Source: a virus
Reading direction: 5' to 3' (one strand)
IMG/VR virus record: IMGVR_UViG_3300036790_000500
Location: 1-64,000 of that record
DNA length: 64,000 nt
The position numbers were made by a program, and so were the translations under genes. Shown piece after piece: positions 656 to 11,978 of this stretch. Positions within the stretch are counted from its first letter, which is position 1, and the number at the start of each line of letters is the position of its first letter. The notes beneath the pieces were generated by a model. The model was given only the letters and a program-made list of their open reading frames with translations, was not told where the DNA came from and did no database searches.

Positions 656-732
656 GGATGCCTCCTGCTTCGGCCACTGAACCGTGGCCGCAGTCGAAGA
701 CCCCTCACGCTAGGGGGAGAGGGTAATGCTTT
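656..732 (-). promoter_or_regulatory. Structured leader: tandem hairpins plus Shine-Dalgarno
   Basis: Read on the minus strand, this gap holds a CCCC/GGGG hairpin, the box CTTCGACTG, a hairpin GGCCAC-GGTTCA-GTGGCC (689-672) and then GAAGCAGGAGG. It belongs to the repeated leader family described in the findings. Confidence 0.6.
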
Positions 733-972
733 TTACTTCTTAGAAACGTAGCGCCACTTGGACCACGTCATCTCGAATCGAAGGCTCTCGGGCAAGGCCT
801 TAATAACCTCATCACGAATGCTGAGTTTTCCCTGGGCTGGGCCGCCCGTTAACTTGTCCAATGCCTCGGCGTCATCGAGCAGGTCAACCGCTCGGGACAT
901 CACATAGACGTCCCAACGCTCGGGCGGCGCGGTGTCGAGGCACCCGAGCGGTTCACCCTCGACTCGACTCAC
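733..972 (-). CDS. Small hypothetical acidic protein
   Basis: Unrecognised 79-residue protein with an acidic N-terminal half and a Lys/Trp-rich C-terminus. The ATG overlaps the stop of the upstream gene (969-1208) as ATGA, indicating coupled translation and fixing the start. Confidence 0.7.
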   Translation of the reverse strand: MSRVEGEPLGCLDTAPPERWDVYVMSRAVDLLDDAEALDKLTGGPAQGKLSIRDEVIKALPESLRFEMTWSKWRYVSKK

Positions 973-1208
973 TTGAGCGAGTCCAAGTAACTGAGGATGG
1001 CTCGGCGGCAGAACTCCTTAGCACCGAGCGGTCCCTCTGAGGCGTCAGCGCTGGCGTGTAGAATCCGCCTGTACTCATCCGTGCTGAACGTGAGCGTCAG
1101 TTTCTCTTTGAGTTCCGTCGGTGGTCGACCGACCTTGCGCTTGCCGGAGTCCGCCGCGGATGACGCGTCGATGTGCTTGTCGTTCATGCGTTGTTTATTG
1201 GCTCCCAT
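969..1208 (-). CDS. Small basic protein with AT-hook-like GRPP, possibly ribbon-helix-helix
   Basis: 79 residues. The N-terminal third is basic and contains KRKVGRPPTELKEKL, an AT-hook-like GRP core. LTLTFSTDEYRRIL follows, which could form the strand and first helix of a ribbon-helix-helix DNA-binding fold (weak inference). The start at 1208 has AACAGGAGAAG upstream. The leader holds a perfect CCCGCT/AGCGGG hairpin (1254-1271). A DNA-binding regulator is plausible but unproven. Confidence 0.65.
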   Translation of the reverse strand: MGANKQRMNDKHIDASSAADSGKRKVGRPPTELKEKLTLTFSTDEYRRILHASADASEGPLGAKEFCRRAILSYLDSLK

Positions 1209-1286
1209 GTTCTTCTCCTGTTAGGGACCGGACAGACCCGCCTCCAATCGAAGCCCGCTCAGAGAAGCGGGATGGCGCAGGCTCGC
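1209..1286 (-). promoter_or_regulatory. Structured leader, divergent member
   Basis: The minus strand reads hairpin CCCGCT-TCTCTG-AGCGGG (1271-1254), then the conserved box CTTCGATTG, then a degenerate GGG/CCC stem and AACAGGAGAAG. The box and Shine-Dalgarno match the family; the second stem is weak here. Confidence 0.5.
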
Positions 1287-1727
1287 CTAATCGAGGTACT
1301 CGGCGGCCTTGCGAAGCGCGGCCGCAACCCGACATGACCGGGAGCGATACGCCTCGTATCTATTGATACCGCCAGTGCCAACGTGGTGGTCGTTGATGTC
1401 GGCAATCGAACCGATGATTTCCTCGAATTCTTCGGACTTGCATTGGCTGAGTGTTACGGCCATCTTCGTAACATCTCTCTCAAGGACATAATCAGTCTCG
1501 GGATGACGTCCTGTCATGGCGAAGTAGAGTTCACCGAGGCCGCAATGCATCGTTCGGACCCCGTTGGTCGGGTCAGGTCCGTTCTGTAACAGACCGTAAC
1601 AGAGCCGAATGAACGTTCGCTTCTTTGGGTCGTAGATTTTATCGGCGAGTTTCAGCATCCACTCGCGAGTGAGTTTCTTCGGGGGCTTTGCCAGGGGCCG
1701 AATCGAACATGAATTTGATTGCGCCAT
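1287..1727 (-). CDS. Hypothetical protein, 146 aa
   Basis: Unrecognised soluble protein. The N-terminus is basic (KPPKKLTREWMLKLADKIYD), followed by a region rich in Cys and Met. I chose the ATG at 1727 rather than the in-frame ATG at 1736: the sequence TTGCGGTAGGAT lies 7 nt upstream and matches the leaderless-promoter motif seen elsewhere in the window. The gene may therefore be transcribed from inside the end of its upstream neighbour. Confidence 0.65.
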   Translation of the reverse strand: MAQSNSCSIRPLAKPPKKLTREWMLKLADKIYDPKKRTFIRLCYGLLQNGPDPTNGVRTMHCGLGELYFAMTGRHPETDYVLERDVTKMAVTLSQCKSEEFEEIIGSIADINDHHVGTGGINRYEAYRSRSCRVAAALRKAAEYLD

Positions 1728-1729
1728 GA

Positions 1730-2146
1730 CTAGCATCCTACCGCAACGTCGGCCGGCCAGGTCAGGCCGAAGTTCTCCGAGACTCGCTGTAGTTGTGAGA
1801 CCATCAAGTTCGGTGAAGTCCCGCGGTCGTGTGCCTTCTGCAGTTCGATAGCAAAGCCGTCGAGTGGAAGGTCGCCATTGTTGACCTCGACGTCGTCGTC
1901 CGAAAGTTCCGCGGCCAACCCTATGCCTCTAAGCCTCAGCCAGTAGACGTCACCAGCGAACGCGCTCTCCGCGGCCCCCGCACCCTCGGTGTCAACCCAG
2001 CCCCAAGCGCAATGCATGACGAAGCCGTCCTCCCTGACCTTACGGTACACGTAATTGACGCCACCGGCGCCAATCCTGCAGCGCTCGAAGCCCTGGGAGG
2101 CGAGGCCGCGGACGGCCCGGTCGAACATCTCCTGATGTGTCATCAT
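1730..2146 (-). CDS. Hypothetical protein, paralogue of 9300-9692
   Basis: 138-residue protein of unknown function. It shares the N-terminal block QEMFDRAVRGLASQG and the internal motif MHCAWGWVD with the protein at 9300-9692, so this is a phage-specific paralogous family. The first 46 nt of the shared block are identical in DNA sequence (2089-2134 and 9632-9677). The start overlaps the TGA of the upstream gene. Cysteines at the shared RC and MHC positions could be functional, but nothing identifies an activity. Confidence 0.75.
   Translation of the reverse strand: MMTHQEMFDRAVRGLASQGFERCRIGAGGVNYVYRKVREDGFVMHCAWGWVDTEGAGAAESAFAGDVYWLRLRGIGLAAELSDDDVEVNNGDLPLDGFAIELQKAHDRGTSPNLMVSQLQRVSENFGLTWPADVAVGC
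1735..1747 (-). promoter_or_regulatory. Putative leaderless promoter (TTGCGGTAGGAT)
   Basis: On the minus strand a -10-like TAGGAT (1740-1735) preceded by TTGCGG lies 7 nt before the ATG at 1727. The same motif recurs at 4606, 14600 and 27043. It overlaps the 3' end of the 1730-2146 gene. Confidence 0.45.
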
Positions 2147-2430
2147 TTAATCTTCTCTCCACTGGTCCCGATGTAGTACTCGCATCCCGGTTCCGAGCAG
2201 ACATGGAAGAAGCCGCCGCTCGGGTTGGCTCTCATCTCGAGTCGACCGTCGCACATCTGACACTCGCCGCCGCCGGTGACCTCGAGGTAATACCGCTGCG
2301 TGACCGGTCGGGTCTTGCGGTCAGCCATCGACTTGCCGTGGGCCCGGGCGTTGTACGTGCCCTCTCCGTTGCGGCGCTTGAATTCCGCCATCAGTCGCTC
2401 CCGCTCGTCTCCGTCAGGTTGCTGTGACAT
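2143..2430 (-). CDS. Hypothetical zinc-ribbon protein
   Basis: 95 residues. The basic N-terminal half (KRRNGEGTYNARAHGKS) is followed by CQMC and, 24 residues later, CSEPGC: a four-cysteine treble-clef or ribbon pattern. Nucleic-acid or protein binding is likely (inference). It is first in a coupled set (ATGA with 1730-2146) and is preceded by one of the best-formed leader hairpins (2449-2468). Confidence 0.7.
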   Translation of the reverse strand: MSQQPDGDERERLMAEFKRRNGEGTYNARAHGKSMADRKTRPVTQRYYLEVTGGGECQMCDGRLEMRANPSGGFFHVCSEPGCEYYIGTSGEKIK

Positions 2431-2500
2431 GTCTTCACTCTCCTGTTTCGGGTCCGAGAGTGGACCCGTAAGCGGAGGCCGGTGATACGCCCGGCCCGTG
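2431..2500 (-). promoter_or_regulatory. Structured leader, canonical copy
   Basis: Minus-strand order: hairpin GGCCGG/CCGGCC (2496-2477), box CTCCGCTTA, a 7-bp hairpin CGGGTCC-ACTCTC-GGACCCG (2468-2449), then AAACAGGAGA. The CTCC of the box can pair with GGAG of the Shine-Dalgarno and close the structure. Confidence 0.65.
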
Positions 2501-2522
2501 AGCCGCTGTCGCTCTGCTTTCT

Positions 2523-2858
2523 CTACTGCCGCTGTTGGACCTGCAGGGTCGAACCCACGCGCTCCGCGTCCTCCTGCGGAAGCGCCGATGAACCGCCCTC
2601 GTCACGGGCCGAGCAACTCTGGCCCGATGGGTCGCACTCGGCTTGGCACCCACCGCATCCCTCGCTCTCGGCCTCGTCACAGAACTCGTTGACGGAGTCC
2701 TGGGCATCCGCGGCCGTGCCGCAACCCGACCAGTCGGCGCCACCGCAGTACTGCGTCTCACCGGAGCAGTCATAGACTTGGTCTGGGTTGACGGGCGCCG
2801 CCGTACAGCCTCCGACGCAAGCGACCATGAGGGACATGAACATGATTTTTTTCAGCAT
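2523..2858 (-). CDS. Cysteine-rich lipoprotein
   Basis: 111 residues. MLKKIMFMSLMVACVGGC is a lipoprotein signal peptide: positive N-terminus, hydrophobic core and lipobox VGGC. The mature part is acidic and very Cys/Gly-rich (repeated C-G-G and C-x-x-C spacing), suggesting a disulphide-stabilised envelope protein. The ATG at 2858 is favoured by the signal peptide and by a TATGAT box 6 nt upstream. An upstream GTG at 2876 with a GGAGGAGG further back is the alternative. It could be expressed in the infected cell envelope, for example in superinfection exclusion (inference). Confidence 0.65.
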   Translation of the reverse strand: MLKKIMFMSLMVACVGGCTAAPVNPDQVYDCSGETQYCGGADWSGCGTAADAQDSVNEFCDEAESEGCGGCQAECDPSGQSCSARDEGGSSALPQEDAERVGSTLQVQQRQ

Positions 2859-2864
2859 GCGTCC

Positions 2865-2874
2865 ATCATACCAC
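2865..2874 (-). promoter_or_regulatory. Putative extended -10 promoter (GTGGTATGAT)
   Basis: TGG-TATGAT on the minus strand (-10 at 2870-2865) ends 6 nt before the ATG at 2858. This predicts a leaderless or near-leaderless transcript for the lipoprotein gene. Confidence 0.55.
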
Positions 2875-2894
2875 AAAACAACCGCACCTCCTCC

Positions 2895-3143
2895 TTAGGA
2901 GGCGTTCGTGCCCTCTTCGAGTTGCCGTTGCAGGCGCTCGGTCCAGTGCTCGTGAACTCGGTCGGCCTCGCTGTCCAACTCGAGGCGCTTGCGGTCAAGC
3001 GCCGCCTCGAACGAGGCCAGCGAGCGTGCTCCGTTCAACTGCGCCTGTACTACTCGCAGCGCTGTATCTGGGCAGGTGTCCATCTCGCTGAAGAACTCGT
3101 CGGACTCGTCGAGGTCCTGCTGCGTAACATAGAATGTTGCCAT
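2895..3143 (-). CDS. Hypothetical helical protein
   Basis: 82-residue, strongly charged, probably alpha-helical protein (EAALDRKRLELDSEADRVHE suggests a coiled coil). The start at 3143 is fixed by AAACAGGAGA and the leader hairpin at 3160-3179; the open frame upstream of it runs into the downstream repeat tract of the neighbouring gene and is not real. Function unknown. Confidence 0.7.
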   Translation of the reverse strand: MATFYVTQQDLDESDEFFSEMDTCPDTALRVVQAQLNGARSLASFEAALDRKRLELDSEADRVHEHWTERLQRQLEEGTNAS

Positions 3144-3195
3144 CGGTATTCTCCTGTTTCGACCGCGAAGATGCGGTCGCAAGCGGAACAATGTC
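3144..3195 (-). promoter_or_regulatory. Structured leader hairpin
   Basis: Minus strand: box TTCCGCTTG, 7-bp hairpin CGACCGC-ATCTTC-GCGGTCG (3179-3160), AAACAGGAGA. The stem bases differ from those at 2449-2468 and 5255-5274 but pairing is kept. Confidence 0.65.
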
Positions 3196-3214
3196 TGAGG
3201 ATTGAGTGTTTGAT

Positions 3215-3565
3215 TTACTGCGACCGCGACCCAGACCACGACCCCGACCCAGACCCCGACCACGACCACGACCACGACCCCGACCACGACCGCGACCGCG
3301 ACCCCGACCCCGACCGCGACCGCGACCCCGACCACGACTCCGGCCGCGACCCCGACCACGACTCCGGCCGCGACCCCGACCCCGACCGCGACCGCGACCC
3401 CGACCACGACTCCGGCCGCGGCCCCGACCAAAAAATCCATTCATCTTCAGGAATGACCGTCCCGTGGTCAAGACAGAAGTCATAGAGGACATCCCGTGCC
3501 TCTAGACCCTCCGTCATGAGCGCATCGAACATTCGAAGCGTCTCCGCCGTCGGCGGCGCGTTCAC
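3215..3565 (-). CDS. Small acidic protein with Ser/Gly/Arg/Trp repeat tail
   Basis: 116 residues. The first 46 form a normal acidic domain (MNAPPTAETLRMFDALMTEG and on), followed by about 65 residues built only from SGSRSRS, SGSWSWS and GSRPESW units ending at a TAA. This frame is chosen because its ATG overlaps the stop of the upstream gene as ATGA; the alternative frames of the tract (poly-PR, poly-GR, poly-GV) lack such support. The tail resembles SR-type disordered sequence and could bind nucleic acid or undergo phase separation (inference). Confidence 0.65.
   Translation of the reverse strand: MNAPPTAETLRMFDALMTEGLEARDVLYDFCLDHGTVIPEDEWIFWSGPRPESWSGSRSRSGSGSRPESWSGSRPESWSGSRSRSGSGSRSRSWSGSWSWSWSGSGSGSWSGSRSQ
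3219..3430. repeat. Short-period tandem repeat tract (CGACCC/CGACCA units)
   Basis: About 210 bp of 6-bp GAC-CCC/GAC-CAC units, with a higher-order unit containing CACGACTCCGGCCGCGACCC present three times (from about 3335, 3358 and 3407). It lies inside the 3' part of the 3215-3565 gene and is a likely site of length variation by slippage. Confidence 0.85.
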
Positions 3566-3810
3566 GCCAACCCCGAAACGACGTGTTCATACGGCGCGAT
3601 GAAGACCCCACCAGAGAGCGGCACGAGGACCCCGTCGGGAAGCCGTTCATGCTTCTTGATTTTACCCGCGTAGTACTCGACGTTCGGTCCGGTCTCGAAG
3701 ACCTCCGTGGCGTCAGACAGCCGCGCATGCGACGGCCAGAGTTCCGTCACGGTTCCGATGTAATAGAAAGTTGGGGTCTTGAACGAGTACGTCTTACCGA
3801 CCTGTAGCAT
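3562..3810 (-). CDS. Hypothetical protein, 82 aa
   Basis: Unrecognised small protein. Alternating hydrophobic and polar residues (YSFKTPTFYYIGTVTELWPS) suggest a beta-barrel such as an SH3-like fold (inference). The start at 3810 has GGAGACGCAG upstream and a leader hairpin; the stop overlaps the start of the repeat-tailed gene. Confidence 0.7.
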   Translation of the reverse strand: MLQVGKTYSFKTPTFYYIGTVTELWPSHARLSDATEVFETGPNVEYYAGKIKKHERLPDGVLVPLSGGVFIAPYEHVVSGLA

Positions 3811-3860
3811 CTGCGTCTCCTGTCTCGGCCGCTATTAATTGCGACCGCGGTCAGAGATGC
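3811..3860 (-). promoter_or_regulatory. Structured leader hairpin with a U-G wobble
   Basis: Minus strand: CGGTCGC-AATTAATA-GCGGCCG (3847-3826), then AGACAGGAGA. The fourth base pair is U-G only in the minus-strand RNA and is a C-A mismatch on the plus strand, which supports a structure in the transcript. Confidence 0.55.
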
Positions 3861-3891
3861 GGTTCACCCGCCGAACCCGTGGACGGGCGAA

Positions 3892-3981
3892 TCAGTTCAT
3901 GTTTCGGCGGTCGAACCGAGCGAGCGTGGCCACGATGAGCCACGCGAACTCGAAGGCCCGGCGGCGGTGCCAAGCCGTCAT
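3892..3981 (-). CDS. Tiny membrane protein, 29 aa
   Basis: Starts at an ATG that overlaps the TGA of the 3978-4187 gene as ATGA, the standard coupling junction in this block, and ends in TGA at 3892. It reads MTAWHRRRAFEF, then a hydrophobic helix AWLIVATLA, then RFDRRNMN: basic flanks around a single short membrane segment. It is small enough to be missed by ordinary gene finding. Function unknown. Confidence 0.5.
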   Translation of the reverse strand: MTAWHRRRAFEFAWLIVATLARFDRRNMN

Positions 3982-4187
3982 ATGCCGAGGTTCTCAGCGA
4001 GCAGCGTGAGGGCCTCCCAGTAACTGTCCGACCACATCCAATACGGCGGACTCCAAGGGCCGGTAAGGACCTCCTTCTCATGGGAGTCAGGAACCACGAG
4101 TCCCGGACCCCAGTACGTGTCACGGAACCACTGGGTCCAGCGCCTGATGTCCAGGAGCGGCTCAAGCGTCAGCGCTTCAGGCTTCAT
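3978..4187 (-). CDS. Hypothetical Trp-rich small protein
   Basis: 69 residues, unusually rich in tryptophan (WTQWFRDTYWGPG and PPYWMWSDSYWEAL). It starts at the ATG at 4187 with AAAGGAGAAG upstream, inside the end of the membrane-protein gene 4177-4293. No family recognised. Confidence 0.65.
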   Translation of the reverse strand: MKPEALTLEPLLDIRRWTQWFRDTYWGPGLVVPDSHEKEVLTGPWSPPYWMWSDSYWEALTLLAENLGI

Positions 4188-4293
4188 CACTCTTCTCCTT
4201 TCCCTCTGAAAGAGGTTTAATCGGTTCGACCGCCGGCGGGTACGCCATGGCGAAGCCGAGCACCGCGAGCAACCCGAGCGCGACCCAGGTCAC
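4177..4293 (-). CDS. Small single-pass membrane protein, 38 aa
   Basis: GTG start overlapping the TGA of 4290-4526 (GTGA), with GGAGG 8 nt upstream. Residues 2-20 (TWVALGLLAVLGFAMAYPP) form one membrane helix, followed by a short charged cytoplasmic or periplasmic tail. Size and type fit phage accessory membrane proteins; no specific role can be assigned. Confidence 0.6.
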   Translation of the reverse strand: MTWVALGLLAVLGFAMAYPPAVEPIKPLSEGKEKSDEA

Positions 4294-4526
4294 GACGTCA
4301 CCTCCGTCGAGTCCACGTCGATGGAGCCGACGTACATCACGACCTCGGTCATAATCATCTTGCGAATGCGGCGGGCGTCCAGGGCCATGCCCATGCGGGT
4401 CTGGGAGACCCGAAAGTGACCGCGCCCGGCTGCCTCGTTTGCTCGACGCTCCCAGAGAAGCGCCGCGTCCTCGAGAGCGTCGGCGACTGTCATCTGGTCG
4501 AGCATATCGATTTCCTTGGGACCCAT
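4290..4526 (-). CDS. Hypothetical helical protein
   Basis: 78 residues, mostly helical and charged. The region ALEDAALLWERRANEAAGRG resembles amphipathic helices of small phage early proteins. The start at 4526 has CAGGAGG upstream and a leader hairpin GCCCGC/GCGGGC (4562-4545). Function unknown. Confidence 0.7.
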   Translation of the reverse strand: MGPKEIDMLDQMTVADALEDAALLWERRANEAAGRGHFRVSQTRMGMALDARRIRKMIMTEVVMYVGSIDVDSTEVTS

Positions 4527-4633
4527 AGCGTTCCTCCTGTTGGAGCCCGCGAAACTGCGGGCCCAATCGGTGGGGCGGTAAGAAGCCGCCGCCGTTGGCT
4601 TTTACATCCTATCGCAACTTTATCGGGCCGCTA
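4527..4633 (-). promoter_or_regulatory. Promoter-like box plus structured leader
   Basis: On the minus strand TTGCGATAGGAT (4617-4606) matches the TTGCGGTAGGAT promoter motif. Downstream come a GCGGCTTCTTACCGC hairpin, box ACCGATTG, hairpin GCCCGC-AGTTTC-GCGGGC (4562-4545) and AACAGGAGG. It suggests a promoter for the 4526-to-1 direction. Confidence 0.5.
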
Positions 4634-5032
4634 TCAATCTTCAGTCGCATCGATGTCCTCCGGACTGAGTCCGTTGTGACACACGGGGCAGTCCTCGGTG
4701 CCGGTGCATTCGTGCTCGGGATACGTTTCCGCGTACGGAACGTTCGGAAAGTAGACCACGTATCCGAGACCCATGTTGTCCTCGGTCCAACCGCGACCGA
4801 GGGCATCGATGGCCGCAGTCAGTCCATCGAGCCTCGCGTTGTTTTCGTCATCATGAGTGTCGGCGATTTCCTCGACGCTCGCCTGCACGGCATGCAGCAG
4901 CCGAGCCACGTTCCGACCCGTGCGACCCAAGAACGCAACGCAGGTCCGGCCGAACATGCCGCGACCCGAGTACGAGAAAGGCTCGAGGACGGCATCCTCG
5001 AGTAGCGTCTGAAGCGGGTGTTTGTTATGCAT
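4634..5032 (-). CDS. Hypothetical protein with CPVC motif near C-terminus
   Basis: 132 residues. The helical middle part (NVARLLHAVQASVEEIADTH) is followed by a C-terminal segment with HECTGTEDCPVCHNG, a C-x5-C-x2-C-H arrangement that could bind one metal ion. It overlaps the stop of 5025-5240, so translation is coupled. No family recognised. Confidence 0.7.
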   Translation of the reverse strand: MHNKHPLQTLLEDAVLEPFSYSGRGMFGRTCVAFLGRTGRNVARLLHAVQASVEEIADTHDDENNARLDGLTAAIDALGRGWTEDNMGLGYVVYFPNVPYAETYPEHECTGTEDCPVCHNGLSPEDIDATED

Positions 5033-5240
5033 GGCTCTTCTGTTCCTCCCGGGTCAGAAGCCGAATGGTCTCCGTCACCGTGTCGACCTCGACGGTCAAC
5101 AGGTCCGACTTCGGACCGACGTACCTCTCGAAGGCGAGATGGATGGCGGAGTTCGTGGCGCTATCGACGCCCTCCTCCGCCTCGAGGTCGATGTCCTGTC
5201 GCAGGTCGGCCAACTCGATGGTCATGATATGCTTTCCCAT
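5025..5240 (-). CDS. Small hypothetical protein, 71 aa
   Basis: Acidic N-terminal half and a beta-rich C-terminal half (LLTVEVDTVTETIRLLTREE). The start at 5240 follows ACAGGAGAAGGC and one of the best leader hairpins (5255-5274). First gene of a coupled pair. Function unknown. Confidence 0.7.
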   Translation of the reverse strand: MGKHIMTIELADLRQDIDLEAEEGVDSATNSAIHLAFERYVGPKSDLLTVEVDTVTETIRLLTREEQKSHA

Positions 5241-5304
5241 GCCTTCTCCTGTCTCGGGTCCGAGATTGGACCCGCGAGCGGAGGGCCTCGAAGAGGCCGA
5301 CCTC
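5241..5304 (-). promoter_or_regulatory. Structured leader, canonical copy
   Basis: Minus strand: hairpin GGCCTC-TTC-GAGGCC (5297-5283), box CCTCCGCTCG, hairpin CGGGTCC-AATCTC-GGACCCG (5274-5255), AGACAGGAGAAGG. Confidence 0.65.
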
Positions 5305-5547
5305 CTAGACTAACTCTCCCTCAATCATCAGACCGGGAATGCCCGATTTTCGGAGCCACGCCATGAACCCGTCCAGGTCACTGACGCGGTCGACGAGAAA
5401 CGACACCGTGATGTCCGCGTCGTTCTTCAGCCTTCCGACGAAGGCCGGCTCGGCCGACCACTCGAGAACCTTGAAGTGGTCGTACGCCGCCTCAAGCAGC
5501 GGCCTGACGTGCGGATAGTCAGGCACATAGAACCAAGGCCTTCTCAC
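5305..5547 (-). CDS. Hypothetical protein, 80 aa
   Basis: GTG start overlapping the TGA of the upstream gene (GTGA); the longer open frame to 5682 is not credible because it would cover that gene. A mixed alpha/beta protein with repeated hydrophobic blocks (FVGRLKNDADITVSFLVDRV). No family recognised. Confidence 0.65.
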   Translation of the reverse strand: MRRPWFYVPDYPHVRPLLEAAYDHFKVLEWSAEPAFVGRLKNDADITVSFLVDRVSDLDGFMAWLRKSGIPGLMIEGELV

Positions 5548-5855
5548 GATGACGCCCACCCGAAGAAGACGAACCAACGCTCGCCCGGCTTCTTCTCGTT
5601 CGGACCCATGCAGATGCAGGCCGCCGGACCCCACTTGTCGTCCGACCAGTGGTCGGGGTCGTCGGTCAACCGCTCCAGACACTCGGCCGGTGACTCACCT
5701 TCGTCCGGGGTGACCATCTTGAAACTGCTCTTCTCGGCGATGGTTCCGGTGTACCCGCCGTGCCCGTGCTCGTATCGGGCGGCGGTGACGGCCTTCTCGA
5801 AGGCCGCCGGTGACGTCGTGGCGCTGACTCGATTCCTGAATTGATTGGCTCCCAT
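5544..5855 (-). CDS. Hypothetical protein, 103 aa
   Basis: Soluble protein with a Gly/Tyr patch (EHGHGGYTGTIAEKSSF) and a C-terminal segment rich in aromatic residues (ERWFVFFGWASS). The start at 5855 is supported by ACAGGAGAAGGAC and the leader hairpin 5871-5890. It opens a coupled pair with 5305-5547. Function unknown. Confidence 0.7.
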   Translation of the reverse strand: MGANQFRNRVSATTSPAAFEKAVTAARYEHGHGGYTGTIAEKSSFKMVTPDEGESPAECLERLTDDPDHWSDDKWGPAACICMGPNEKKPGERWFVFFGWASS

Positions 5856-5920
5856 GTCCTTCTCCTGTTTCAGCACCGGAATTGGCGCTGCAATCGGAGC
5901 CCGGCATTCGTCCGGCTCGG
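5856..5920 (-). promoter_or_regulatory. Structured leader with compensatory G-U pair
   Basis: Minus strand: box CTCCGATTG, hairpin CAGCGCC-AATTCC-GGTGCTG (5890-5871), AAACAGGAGAAGG. One pair is G-U in the minus-strand RNA but A-C on the other strand. Confidence 0.6.
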
Positions 5921-5934
5921 TCTCCCCTCTTATT

Positions 5935-6639
5935 CTAGCAGTAGAAGTCTGCCAGGGTCGGCCCGCCGTCCTGGAGGGCGTTCACGGCGGCCATGAACTC
6001 ATGGGCCTCCGACACCGTTCCGGGCGCCAGGTCCAACTCGTGGATGCTCTCGAGGTCCGGGTCGTCATCCTCGAGACGCTTTAGGAAGCCAGCCAGGCCG
6101 GTCAGACCCATTCGGGTCCAGCGATACGGCTGTTCACCCTGTGACCGCAGCCAGTCCGCCTCGAACGCGCTGAACAGTTCGTAGTCCCCCTCGATGCTCT
6201 CGTAGTGATGGGCCTCGGCCTGCTGCCTGGCGCTGGCGAGCATGCAGTCCGTGGCCGAACGAACCAAGTCCGCAGCCCGTTCCTGGTCACCCCCACAGAA
6301 CTCCAGGACGACCGGCCAGACGTCGGCCGTCTCGCACTGGGTCTCATAGTCCAGGGTCTTCTCGATTTGCAGAAAACCCTCGTCGTCCTCCTCATAGGAG
6401 AGGGACCGAAGCCGGCCGTCGCTCCAGACCTCGTTCTGTCCGGGAAAATCGTCGTCTGCCGACTTGTGCCTCGTCGGGTCGGCCGGCGCCGGCGGAGCCC
6501 CGTCTTCGACCCTGAAGTAGCCGGCCAGCGTCGCGGGCGGGTTCAGTTCGTCCACGAAGTTCGGGCCCCTCCACTTCTCTGGAGTGTAGAGCCGGCCGTG
6601 TTCCTCTCGCTTCAGGTCTCGCTCGAATTTGATTGTCAT
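5935..6639 (-). CDS. Hypothetical protein, 234 aa
   Basis: The largest gene in the left block. Start at 6639 (AAAAGGA upstream); the frame stays open far upstream only as a shadow of the next genes. It begins MTIKFERDLKREEHG, has an acidic middle, helical segments with Cys (EFCGGDQERAADLVRSATDC) and an acidic C-terminal half rich in leucine (MGLTGLAGFLKRLEDDDPDL). No enzyme motif is seen. It lacks the usual leader element and sits only 13 nt after 6653-6943, so it probably shares that transcript. Confidence 0.7.
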   Translation of the reverse strand: MTIKFERDLKREEHGRLYTPEKWRGPNFVDELNPPATLAGYFRVEDGAPPAPADPTRHKSADDDFPGQNEVWSDGRLRSLSYEEDDEGFLQIEKTLDYETQCETADVWPVVLEFCGGDQERAADLVRSATDCMLASARQQAEAHHYESIEGDYELFSAFEADWLRSQGEQPYRWTRMGLTGLAGFLKRLEDDDPDLESIHELDLAPGTVSEAHEFMAAVNALQDGGPTLADFYC

Positions 6640-6652
6640 TTGTTCATTCCTT

Positions 6653-6943
6653 TTAGAACGGCGCCTTCTCATCGGCGATGATGGCCGCCACGACACAGCC
6701 CCAGTACTCCGCTCGAGCCTGGGCGACTTCCAGGGTGATGAGGGTCCACTTGTCCCCGTTGTTCCACTCGCCCCAGTACTCGTCGTTCCCGTCATCGAAC
6801 AGAGCGGTGAACGCCTCATCGTATATGGCGCTGCCCTTCTTGTTGGTACCGACGATGTCGGCCATCGCCGCGTCGACGTCGTCGTACGTCCGAAGCGTCG
6901 GTGAGTTGTGTCCGTCCTCGAACTCGAGATAGACGTTAGCCAT
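6653..6943 (-). CDS. Hypothetical protein, 96 aa
   Basis: Small protein with an acidic Tyr/Trp-rich centre (DDGNDEYWGEWNNGDKWTL) followed by a helix. The start at 6943 is fixed by ACAGGAGAACGG and the leader hairpin 6961-6983. Function unknown. Confidence 0.7.
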   Translation of the reverse strand: MANVYLEFEDGHNSPTLRTYDDVDAAMADIVGTNKKGSAIYDEAFTALFDDGNDEYWGEWNNGDKWTLITLEVAQARAEYWGCVVAAIIADEKAPF

Positions 6944-7019
6944 GTTCCGTTCTCCTGTCTCGGTCGCTGTTGATTTGCGACCGCGGTCGGAGGGACCCGC
7001 TCTGCCGGGTCCTTGCATT
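6944..7019 (-). promoter_or_regulatory. Structured leader with long-loop hairpin
   Basis: Minus strand: hairpin GGACCCG-GCAGAG-CGGGTCC (about 7011-6992), box CCTCCGACCG, hairpin CGGTCGC-AAATCAACA-GCGACCG (6983-6961), AGACAGGAGAA. Confidence 0.6.
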
Positions 7020-7373
7020 TCATTTCAGAACCGCCACCTTGATGAGCGCCTTGGCGCGGGGGAGGGAGACCTTGGCCGCCGTCGCGACCGGCGCCTCGAC
7101 CACCAGGCTCCGGAGTTCGCACGTTCCCTCCTCCTCGCCGCTGTCGTCCAGGAACACCAGCCACGCATGGCCCCGCTCCCCCTCCACCCGGGCGGCCATT
7201 CCCTCGGCCGTGACCGTGCAGTCGTTCGTGGTCGCCGTCCCCACGCCGACCAGGGCGTAGACGTTCGCCGAGGCCCGGAACGCCATGGGGACGTCGATGG
7301 GCCGCTGGGAGGCCGGGGACGCGTGGACGCTGGAGGCCCAACACACGGCCGCAAAGATGAGCGATTTCTTCAT
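7020..7373 (-). CDS. Secreted/periplasmic hypothetical protein
   Basis: 117 residues. MKKSLIFAAVCWASSVHA is a classical Sec signal peptide, with probable cleavage after VHA. The mature domain is about 98 residues, beta-rich, with two cysteines (DCTV and TCEL) that could form one disulphide. The start at 7373 fits the signal peptide and the leader with AGGAGAAT. Likely exported to the periplasm of the infected cell. Confidence 0.7.
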   Translation of the reverse strand: MKKSLIFAAVCWASSVHASPASQRPIDVPMAFRASANVYALVGVGTATTNDCTVTAEGMAARVEGERGHAWLVFLDDSGEEEGTCELRSLVVEAPVATAAKVSLPRAKALIKVAVLK

Positions 7374-7443
7374 GTCTTTAGATTCTCCTGTTTCGATGCC
7401 GGGATTGGCATCGCAATCGGAGGGCCGGAGACCCGGCCTTGAT
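7374..7443 (-). promoter_or_regulatory. Structured leader, canonical copy
   Basis: Minus strand: hairpin GGCCGGGTCTCCGGCC, box CCTCCGATTG, hairpin CGATGCC-AATCCC-GGCATCG (7413-7394), AAACAGGAGAA. With 5871 and 5255 it gives the clearest covariation set. Confidence 0.65.
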
Positions 7444-7761: not shown

Positions 7762-8018
7762 AGTCCCCTCTGCCCGAGCGTCAGGTACTCGTCTCCGAGC
7801 GGCCCGGCGGCGACTCCGATTGCCACCCACTGGAGGCAGAAGGCCGCCCAGGCGAGGTCCGCCACCATGTCGTTCATGGGGAGTCCCATGGGGTGACCCG
7901 CATACCTGAACCGCTCGTGTATCCAGTCGCGGTACAGAGTGGAGAACGGATGACTGCGGGTGTCGCGGGCCGCCGCGGTTCCGCACCGCGACCAGAGGCG
8001 ATACGGGCGCTCGCTCAC
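7758..8018 (-). CDS. Hypothetical protein, 86 aa
   Basis: GTG start overlapping the RNase III stop (GTGA). The pattern of an N-terminal TLYRDWIHERFRYAGHP segment plus DMVADLAWAAFCLQW resembles dATP/dGTP pyrophosphohydrolase-like or similar helical phage proteins, but this is too weak to name. It lies in a four-gene coupled run 8667-to-7444. Confidence 0.6.
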   Translation of the reverse strand: MSERPYRLWSRCGTAAARDTRSHPFSTLYRDWIHERFRYAGHPMGLPMNDMVADLAWAAFCLQWVAIGVAAGPLGDEYLTLGQRGL

Positions 8019-8470
8019 GGCAGCGCCCCCGTCCCCCGGGCCACCCAGGGGAGCAGCCCCATCGCTCCGGCCACCCACTCCGCCACCGGGAGCCCGCCCG
8101 CCGCGAAGCCGGCCCCGACCAGCGCCTCGACCCCGTCGCAGAGGGCCTTCTCGCTGTTGCGGACCTCCGCGGGCCGGGCCGAGCCCCCCACCGAGAGCCG
8201 CTCTCCCAGCCCGAGCCGCCGGGCGTGCCCGGCCAGGGCGGCCGTGCAGACCAGCCGGGCCCGCTCCTGCGACAGCCGGCCCTCGTCCCACTCGGGCCGG
8301 AGCCGGAGCAGGCGCTCGGCCACCAGGAGGTCCAGGACGCTGTCTCCAAGCCACTCCAGTCGTTCTGAGTGAGGCCCGGAGCGGTCGGACCGGTGCCTCA
8401 AGGCCTGACGGAAGAGGGCCTCGCCTAGACGACCCTGCAACTCCGCCCAGACGACGGCCGGCGCCGTCAC
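8015..8470 (-). CDS. RNase III-domain endoribonuclease without dsRNA-binding domain
   Basis: 151 residues. HSERLEWLGDSVLDLLVAE (34-52) is the RNase III signature with the metal-binding Glu and Asp, and NSEKALCDGVEALVGA carries the second acidic pair. The family cuts double-stranded RNA as a dimer. The protein ends right after the catalytic domain, so it has the architecture of Mini-III, which processes structured RNA without a dsRBD. GTG start overlapping the previous stop. The upstream frame to 8548 is not used. Given the hairpin leaders in the same block and the tRNA array, processing of phage RNA is an attractive role (inference). Confidence 0.85.
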   Translation of the reverse strand: MTAPAVVWAELQGRLGEALFRQALRHRSDRSGPHSERLEWLGDSVLDLLVAERLLRLRPEWDEGRLSQERARLVCTAALAGHARRLGLGERLSVGGSARPAEVRNSEKALCDGVEALVGAGFAAGGLPVAEWVAGAMGLLPWVARGTGALP

Positions 8471-8708: not shown

Positions 8709-8774
8709 CGGCTCCCGGGGGACTCGAACCCCCGCGGGCTATCATCCGGCGGGCTCCTGTGCCCGCGGGGAGCC
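8709..8774 (-). tRNA. tRNA-like sequence, possible tRNA-Ile(GAT), minimal
   Basis: Perfect 7-bp acceptor GGCTCCC/GGGAGCC and a canonical T arm GGGGG-TTCGAGT-CCCCC. The middle part is only 34 nt (about 41 is normal): a strong GCGGG/CCCGC stem with a GG-containing loop, then the loop ATGATAG with T33, GAT and A37, and no variable loop. It may be a degenerate or minimal tRNA. It is isolated from the main array and on the other strand. Confidence 0.4.
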
Positions 8775-8808: not shown

Positions 8809-9303
8809 TTACGGCGGCGGGGAGCCGCTCCCGAGGCAGGCCCCGACGCCCGCCAGGGTGACCGCCACGGAGACCGGGCCGCAGGCCAGCCCGTCGACCC
8901 CGAGTATCACCGCGTGGGAGGCCGAGCCCCAGCGGAGGTCGTCGGGGGACCCGTCGGACCCGACCCCGACGAAGAGGGTGCTCCCGGCCGCGTCGCTGAA
9001 GGCCGCCCAGAAGCGGGGGGCGAGGCCGCCCGTCGGAACGTCCGCGGCCGGCGGAAAGAAGAGGGTCGCGTCGACCTCGCAGGTCGGGGCCGCGGACCCG
9101 ACCGGCTCCATCCCATAGAACGTAAGGGACACGGAGCACAGGGGCGCGGCATCGCCGGAGCCGGAGCCCCTGTCGGAGCCGGAGCCGGAGACGCCCGAGT
9201 CCGGGCAGGGAGCATCCGCGCCCGCCACGCCCCCGCACGCGCCGCCGCCGGCCGCCGACAGGAGGGCAGAACACGCGAGACCGAGCGTCGTTCGAGCCCT
9301 CAC
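8809..9303 (-). CDS. Secreted or lipoprotein-like hypothetical protein
   Basis: 164 residues. The GTG start overlaps the stop of 9300-9692. The N-terminus VRARTTLGLACSALLSAAGG is a signal-peptide-like stretch followed by GGACGG, a possible but non-ideal lipobox. After it comes a Ser/Gly/Asp-rich linker (SGSGSDRGSGSGDA), then a beta-rich domain with three cysteines. A signal plus low-complexity linker plus beta domain is common in myxobacterial lipoproteins. Function unknown. Confidence 0.65.
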   Translation of the reverse strand: MRARTTLGLACSALLSAAGGGACGGVAGADAPCPDSGVSGSGSDRGSGSGDAAPLCSVSLTFYGMEPVGSAAPTCEVDATLFFPPAADVPTGGLAPRFWAAFSDAAGSTLFVGVGSDGSPDDLRWGSASHAVILGVDGLACGPVSVAVTLAGVGACLGSGSPPP

Positions 9304-9692
9304 GACGCCACGTCCGGATACATCGCGGCGTCGCTCAGTCCGTAATCCGCGGCCAGTTTCCGGAAGTCCTGCCGGAGGTTCGCGTTGCTGGACTCGTCAT
9401 GGGTCCGCTGGAGGGCCAGGGCGAACTCCCGGTCCCCATCGGACGTCAGTTCGGCATAGACCGGGCTCCGGACCGTGGAATTCGCGACCGAACCCACACC
9501 GGCGGTCGCCGGGTCGACCCATCCCCAGGCGCAGTGCATGACCCCGCCGCCGGGCGGCCAGAGCGTGTACTCGCAATTATTATAATAATAATCTTCGAGC
9601 CCATTCGAACCGCGTTGCACACAGCGGCGCCAGCCCTGGGAGGCGAGGCCGCGGACGGCCCGGTCGAACATCTCCTGCTTCGTGAGACCCAT
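9300..9692 (-). CDS. Hypothetical protein, paralogue of 1730-2146
   Basis: 130 residues. Shares QEMFDRAVRGLASQG, an RC pair and MHCAWGWVD with 1730-2146. The start at 9692 has CAGGAGGATGC upstream. A DYYYNN stretch is encoded by an AT-rich run (about 9572-9592) unlike the surrounding GC-rich sequence and similar to the AT island at 11.56-11.77 kb. Function unknown. Confidence 0.75.
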   Translation of the reverse strand: MGLTKQEMFDRAVRGLASQGWRRCVQRGSNGLEDYYYNNCEYTLWPPGGGVMHCAWGWVDPATAGVGSVANSTVRSPVYAELTSDGDREFALALQRTHDESSNANLRQDFRKLAADYGLSDAAMYPDVAS

Positions 9693-9804
9693 TGCATCCT
9701 CCTGCTTGACCCGCGAAAAGCCGCGGGCCCAGTACGAGACGGCAAGGGCGGTACGAGACGGCAAAAGGCCGGCCCGCAAACACACCAATATCAGAGGGAC
9801 TTGC
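9693..9804 (-). promoter_or_regulatory. Leader with hairpin and short direct repeats
   Basis: Hairpin CCCGCG/CGCGGG (9727-9710) sits next to AGCAGGAGG, as in the leader family, but the CTCCGATTG box is absent. On the plus strand GTACGAGACGGCAA occurs twice, about 18 bp apart (near 9732 and 9750). Confidence 0.45.
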
Positions 9805-11461: not shown

Positions 11462-11978
11462 GTTTCGATTCTCCTGTGTTTTTGGTTGCGTTGCGCGTGG
11501 CTTGGGACGGCCCGACTCGGGTGGGTGGGGACGCGAGTGGGCCTGGGACCGCGTCCCCTTATAAGAACTATTATACCAAATAATGAGTTATTATAATAAT
11601 GTTTTATTTATTTGTTATTTTTATTTGATGAGTTTATTATAATAAATAATGAGTTATTATAATAATGTTTTATTTATTTATTTATTTATTCCTTTCCTTT
11701 TTCCTTATGAGTTTATTATATCAAATAATGTTTTATTATAATAATGAATAATGGGTTCCCCATAAAACATCATTAGATTCGGGCCGGCTTACCCCGCGCG
11801 GGTCGGACGGGAGAGTTTCCCGTGAAACCGTCGCAACTCCGTGCCCGTCACCGGACCGCGCCGCCGGCGACCCGCGCGAGAGAAGACCGAAGAAAAACCG
11901 GAGGAAACCCGACGGGACCGTCGCAACTCCGCGCGTCACTGGCCGCGGCGGACCCACGCGCCATAGTTTGGTTCATCA
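11462..11978. other. Candidate replication origin region (non-coding, strand switch)
   Basis: Lies between the left minus-strand block and the first plus-strand genes. It contains the AT-rich repeat island (11558-11774) and, in GC-rich flanking DNA, the direct repeat ACCGTCGCAACTCCG at 11827-11841 and 11917-11931. No coding frame is supported. An AT-rich unwinding element plus flanking repeats at a divergent junction is typical of origins, but the assignment is inference. Confidence 0.45.
11558..11774. repeat. AT-rich repeat island
   Basis: About 215 bp of almost pure A/T in a genome that otherwise reads near 60 percent GC. A 36-bp sequence beginning AAATAATGAGTTATTATAAT is exactly repeated at 11578-11613 and 11644-11679, and ATGAGTTTATTATA occurs at 11628 and 11707. 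Confidence 0.85.

Follow-up and report, generated by a model that had tools for sequence, protein, structure and literature searches.

A repeated leader hairpin predicted to sequester the Shine-Dalgarno sequence in a large uncultured T4-like phage

Copies of a leader hairpin in a block of small genes

The window analyzed in this study comprises bases 1-64000 of a 107,053-base IMG/VR virus contig (G000), and its minus strand carries a block of small genes in which one structured RNA element recurs, with 11 copies spanning 0.66-9.74 kb. The phage is a large uncultured T4-like virus, whose contig codes for a T4-type capsid (Gp23), a T4-type portal, a T4-type terminase, and a tail sheath; 31 tRNAs were found in the window record. 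No DNA similar to the first 8 kb was present in the cultured-phage collection, where the best full-length capsid match was a Microcystis phage at 35% identity. A second contig of 92.8 kb (G002) ends in 20 bases identical to the first 20 bases of G000, and because of this exact overlap of contig ends the two are probably parts of one genome of ~200 kb. Three further copies lie at the putatively joined end of G002, giving 14 in this phage, and no element was found in the remainder of G000. Six more copies are located at 179-184 kb of a related 185-kb contig (G003), which was found by a plain pattern scan and codes for a capsid 79% identical to that of this phage; this capsid and one other were the nearest that were found.

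All copies in the window are on the minus strand, and each heads a gene. The ten leaders listed in an earlier note on this DNA are all present where they had been placed, and an eleventh had been overlooked. A covariance model was trained on seven copies, and the others were tested as untrained sequences. This seven-copy model scored 51.5 bits for the copy at 662..699 (heading the gene at 655-413), 57.3 bits at 2440..2477 (gene 2430-2143), 56 bits at 3151..3188 (gene 3143-2895), 61.8 bits at 5246..5283 (gene 5240-5025), 59.8 bits at 5862..5899 (gene 5855-5544; a G-U pair occurs in the stem), and 62 bits at 7385..7422 (gene 7373-7020). Untrained matches were obtained at 3815-3858 (E=4e-5) for the copy at 3817..3856, which heads the gene at 3810-3562, at 4532-4574 (E=0.008) for the copy at 4534..4572 with a bulged U (gene 4526-4290), and at 6950-6994 (E=1e-7) for the copy at 6952..6992 (gene 6943-6653); elsewhere, G002 gave two such matches (E=1.9e-6 and 4.6e-4) and G003 one (E=9.3e-8). 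The weakest copy, at 1215..1253 (gene 1208-969), is a marginal untrained match at 1213-1255 (20.3 bits, E=0.03). The copies at 672 and 1254 had been described as looser ones; both fit the common register, the latter being the weakest of the set. The eleventh copy, at 9699..9738 (gene 9692-9300), is assigned on the basis of its pairing in the common register; it was not recovered by the seven-copy model (14.5 bits, E=0.91) and reached E=9e-9 once it was in the training set.

Anatomy of the hairpin and its covarying arms

Box, stem, linker, and Shine-Dalgarno sequence are computed to form a single imperfect hairpin of 16 registers in the 20 copies on the three contigs. Registers are numbered from the hairpin base, and the count is ungapped except for one bulged base removed in the 4534 copy. 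The box (CUCCGAUUG type) supplies the 5' strand and the Shine-Dalgarno region (ACAGGAG) the 3' strand, with GAAACAGGAGA as the consensus. The earlier note had treated the box as separate from the hairpin that follows; instead, the box is itself the 5' strand, and box and linker pair and covary (register 8). It had also listed RACAGGAGA as a shared part of the leaders; this sequence is not universal, and GCAGGAGG is found at 672 and 9704. Registers 1-4 are formed by CUCC:GGAG, a pairing proposed earlier and possible in 76 of 80 cells. Registers 5-6 constitute a 2x2 internal loop with GA (15 copies) or GC (5) opposite CA, one copy having U at register 5, so that the unpaired positions are fixed at G5 in 19/20 and at the opposite A and C in 20/20 each. 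Register 7 is U-A in 16 copies, C-G in two (e.g., the 662 copy), and C.A in two, and register 8 is U-A in 11 and C-G in nine (e.g., the 5246 copy) without exception. Register 9 is mostly purine-purine (G.A 10, G.G 5, A.A 1), the remainder being G-C, as in the 4534 copy, or G-U. Above it, registers 10-16 are a 7-bp stem of free sequence; the six-base loops in this phage are mostly ANUYYC-like.

Paired cells in this stem amount to 134 of 140, and when the 3' arms were swapped among copies (5000 trials) the number fell to a mean of 78.5 with a maximum of 106, in agreement with the earlier description of stems that differ in sequence yet always pair. The same swap lowered the paired cells of registers 7-8 from 38 to a mean of 31.5 (maximum 36). 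Covariation, which the earlier note had proposed to look for in aligned leaders, was evident in a model-fitted alignment of 18 copies, where the score was 0.516 vs 0.168 in shuffles (0/500 as high), 97.3% of cells were paired vs 77.1% in shuffles, 9 of 13 pairs had changes on both sides, and every slid register scored far lower. This alignment is biased towards its own model; the 20-copy register count is free of such bias. Pairs that are G-U only on the RNA strand, which had been pointed out as well, do occur, but with G-U at 8 and A-C at 6 these counts alone do not settle the strand.

A first hairpin was said to be often present ahead of the box, and this holds for this phage, where it is clear in ~10 of 14 copies, and not for the relative, where it is mostly missing. 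Many copies of this phage have its 3' arm directly against the box, and the summed stem score is 77 vs a null mean of 26 and a null maximum of 45. On the minus strand of the window, first hairpins adjoin the box at 2478..2495 (2440 copy; p=0.09), 5284..5298 (5246 copy; p=0.027), 6993..7012 (6952 copy; p=0.003), and 7423..7438 (7385 copy; p=0.030), and others lie at 701..716 (662 copy; p=0.047), 1254..1271 (1215 copy; p=0.010), and 4574..4590 (4534 copy; p=0.047). The core of the one belonging to the 5862 copy, at 5901..5915 (p=0.043), is extendable into the CUC of the box. Those of the 662, 2440, and 5862 copies appear in the minimum free energy fold, and the 3151 copy has no clear first hairpin.

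Placement, predicted occlusion, and genomic surroundings

The computed placement of the element is strongly biased. Among 28 gene junctions in the block, it occurs at 11 of the 13 with a gap of at least 36 nt and at none of the 15 that are overlapping or tight (hypergeometric ~4e-6); for this count, one gene start was corrected to 3143, which makes its gap 71 and the next gap 36. Because of this distribution, the earlier statement that the leader is used once per unit holds, i.e., there is one element per translationally coupled unit. The genes behind the copies are small and mutually unrelated; none of their proteins exceeded the curated cut-off in Pfam, and Pfam and PHROGs together yielded no functional assignment.

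In 20/20 copies, the Shine-Dalgarno arm precedes the start codon by 4-11 nt, and the hairpin is predicted to occlude it. In partition functions, the probability of CUCC:GGAG has a mean of 0.77, with 17 of the 20 copies at 0.64 or above, and the Shine-Dalgarno sequence is predicted to be unpaired 18% of the time, compared with 62% when the box is barred from pairing. Its median predicted accessibility is 0.10 vs 0.28 at other GGAG-led starts (p=0.02). The CA preceding GGAG, which is half of the internal loop, is found at 20/20 element sites vs 7/83 other GGAG-led starts of this phage. Nine departures occur in the CUCC arm; in five of them U replaces C, which leaves a G-U pair. The G003 copy at 184 kb has a broken register 2 together with a longer outer helix that reaches the start codon. 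With registers 7-16 covarying and CUCC:GGAG strongly predicted, the element has the features of a Shine-Dalgarno-sequestering leader.

The six copies of G003 are opposite in strand to its capsid gene and ~92 kb away from it, which matches the arrangement in G000; the box is mostly CUCCGAUCG, and covariation of the arms falls in the same registers. Between the G003 and G000 blocks, the proteins show one weak match and are otherwise unrelated, and since the element is kept nonetheless, the leader has, as judged from these sequences, outlived the genes it served. In exact-pattern scans of viral contigs, ~116 matches were re-read, with convincing stems only on the G002 and G003 contigs and one borderline single copy elsewhere (locus L018). 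A pattern scan of bacterial and archaeal genomes gave 14 single matches, none of them convincing. No convincing element was found by covariance search in five phage records (three cultured) or in 34 contigs with related capsids, many of which are fragments, so that absence from the latter is weak evidence. The evidence base is thus two phage lineages, represented by contigs that may be incomplete.

Several other features surround the copies. A phage-encoded RNase III catalytic domain of 151 amino acids is located inside the element-bearing block at 8015..8470 on the minus strand (Pfam PF00636, E=1.3e-19; PF14622, E=3.4e-19), with no obvious double-stranded-RNA-binding domain. The gene at 9300-9692 (-), which is headed by the eleventh copy, has a paralog at 1730-2146 (-); the proteins are 39% identical and the DNA around their starts is nearly identical, and the 1730-2146 gene is ATGA-coupled instead of carrying an element. 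A TTGCGATAGGAT-like sequence, possibly a phage or host promoter motif, recurs upstream of some leaders, at 4600-4625 and 1735-1750 (-), and at ~1370-1400 (-) of locus L139. The gene at 3215-3565 (-) has strongly repetitive DNA, and the C-terminal half of its product is a serine-arginine-glycine-tryptophan repeat (SGSRSRSGS...). Just upstream of the gene at 8667-8467, positions 8710-8774 (-) adopt a tRNA-like fold with a 7-bp acceptor-like stem and a T-arm-like GGTTCGAGTC, for which ARAGORN made no call and the mascRNA match was weak and sub-threshold. A very AT-rich stretch at 11580-11770, with TAAATAAATA and ATTATTATAATA repeats in a genome of 61% GC, may be an origin or promoter region. Lastly, the long open reading frame of the T4-type portal gene (locus L008, 37-3786, +) also matches Intein_splicing and HNH_3.

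Candidate functions and related systems

The element would best be explained as a multi-copy translational gate or operator in which the Shine-Dalgarno sequence is sequestered once per translational unit, a reading that we consider probable, with appreciable room for others. Each copy would be an RNA hairpin that acts in cis from an intercistronic leader within a block of small, probably early genes, and its basal helix would hold the ribosome-binding site beneath the internal loop, the two covarying pairs, the usual purine-purine mismatch, and the stable stem. Because one copy heads each translationally coupled unit, ribosome entry would be gated for the whole unit. Because unpaired positions are fixed and stems drift, we infer that the internal loop is most likely read by a common factor, such as an RNA-binding protein or a nuclease of the phage, or the ribosome as it initiates, which would turn a dozen or more units down or up together. 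Candidate openers or lockers of the hairpin would include a repressor, an activator, RNase III, and the 30S subunit. A CsrA-type site was rejected, its ANGGA core being incompatible with CAGGAG. In a more tentative extension, which we consider less likely than not, the copies would form a phage-wide translational regulon in which a phage-encoded factor reads the internal loop and switches at least 14 early units, the operator having been copied before recruited genes.

Several points weigh against the gate or operator. CUCC:GGAG is beyond proof by covariation, which is uninformative here because GGAG is invariant, and register 2 is broken in three copies and register 4 in one. Folding favours an open Shine-Dalgarno sequence in the 1215 copy, where pairing is imperfect in the common register and CUCC:GGAG is not predicted, and in the G003 182802 copy, and is undecided in the 2440 copy. 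The accessibility contrast with other starts is modest, early timing of the block is an assumption based on how small and novel its genes are and where they lie, and the T4 RegA family (PF01818) was not found in the three records by a search that had no positive control. The ribosome-entry switch of the earlier note is partly supported and stands as the best reading of the anatomy, with switching by a signal or factor as its putative part.

RNase III sites in the early mRNA of T7 are hairpins with internal loops at early-gene boundaries, and the RNase III domain within the block makes a nuclease processing site a serious rival. Host or phage RNase III would cut the hairpin, which is sometimes stacked on the first hairpin, and split a polycistronic early mRNA into units, and the Shine-Dalgarno sequence would be released as well if the cut fell in the 3' strand; the phage domain at 8015-8470 may possibly be the processing enzyme. 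The position of the elements at unit boundaries fits such a site, as does a 16-register hairpin with a conserved internal loop and, in many copies, an adjoining first hairpin. However, most G003 copies are without the adjoining first hairpin, the RNase III family was not found in the G003 record, which keeps the element (a host enzyme could serve), and a processing site has no need of an exact Shine-Dalgarno register; on balance, processing seems unlikely. The T7 sites are alike in being internal-loop hairpins that border early genes, and unlike in that the Shine-Dalgarno sequence is not in a fixed register. No more probable is a passive structure that merely lowers or insulates translation by blocking upstream read-in, or protects the mRNA, with neither a factor nor switching involved. 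Once-per-unit placement at gaps and strong stems agree with this, and T4 has passive occluding structures of this kind at genes e, soc, 49, and I-TevI (PMC3014915), but it does not require fixed unpaired bases (CA and G5, as counted above), let alone ones kept across phages with differing genes.

A DNA-level element, i.e., an N4-type hairpin promoter or a DNA-binding site with RNA pairing as a by-product, is very improbable. Where symmetrical elements recur ahead of phage genes, they are often DNA sites, this reading was favoured for ESAS in the cluster K study (PMC3203893), and the G-U and A-C counts are indecisive. Yet the stem is free in sequence with pairing kept, unlike the conservation of a double-stranded DNA site, the 3' arm is exactly the Shine-Dalgarno sequence at the above distance from the start codon, and a transcript beginning after the hairpin would have almost no leader. 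A sigma-70-type promoter scan found nothing within the elements. In some RNA thermometers, the helix that sequesters the Shine-Dalgarno sequence is basal and weak and contains an internal loop. The element resembles them in this respect, but a thermometer or ligand riboswitch is the most improbable reading: no Rfam thermometer or riboswitch matched at E up to 1, the genes served are a dozen or more and unrelated, and the inner stem is highly stable, with no sign of a larger conserved pocket.

No relevant match to the element was obtained in Rfam 15, either at the gathering score or with E values of up to 1, and, compared with the open-access literature, the element is classed here as a new family of structured RNA whose functional kind is already known. 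In placement, the nearest known system is the SAS/ESAS repeats of cluster K mycobacteriophages (PMC3203893); such repeats are also known in Microbacterium cluster EF phages (PMC7302621). Like the present element, they occur in many copies per genome, upstream of starts, overlapping the Shine-Dalgarno sequence, at larger gaps and before unrelated genes, and in cluster K an inverted repeat lies upstream of SAS. However, SAS is a fixed 13-bp sequence (GGGATAGGAGCCC-like) that the element consensus does not match, and the cluster K ESAS is a 17-bp inverted repeat with a fixed consensus, whereas here the stems are free, compensatory changes keep the pairing, and the Shine-Dalgarno sequence itself forms one arm. 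Departures from the ESAS consensus gave its authors little support for RNA pairing (PMC3203893). The leaders of the above T4 genes and of mobE of phage Aeh1 (PMC3014915) likewise place the Shine-Dalgarno sequence inside a leader RNA helix in T4-like phages, but these are single-gene structures, whereas here one motif with a conserved internal loop occurs at least 14 times. T4 gene e escapes via a late promoter in the 5' strand (PMC3014915), and none such was seen in the element. RegA and RegB of T4 are comparable in that many early mRNAs are jointly controlled at Shine-Dalgarno regions (PMC3014915), with the difference that RegB requires GGAG to be accessible, so that structure blocks it (PMC3014915).

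Phage early regions contain many small unknown genes with quick turnover, and their common control has mostly been studied at promoters. A structured RNA gate that is reused before unrelated genes would survive gene replacement and tie units to one signal. The covariance model can be used to find such regulons, the element offers a concrete target for a factor search, and its copies make up a natural leader set for studying Shine-Dalgarno accessibility. For the SAS/ESAS repeats, which are start-associated but whose RNA pairing was unsupported, the element provides a counter-example with clear selection for RNA pairing.

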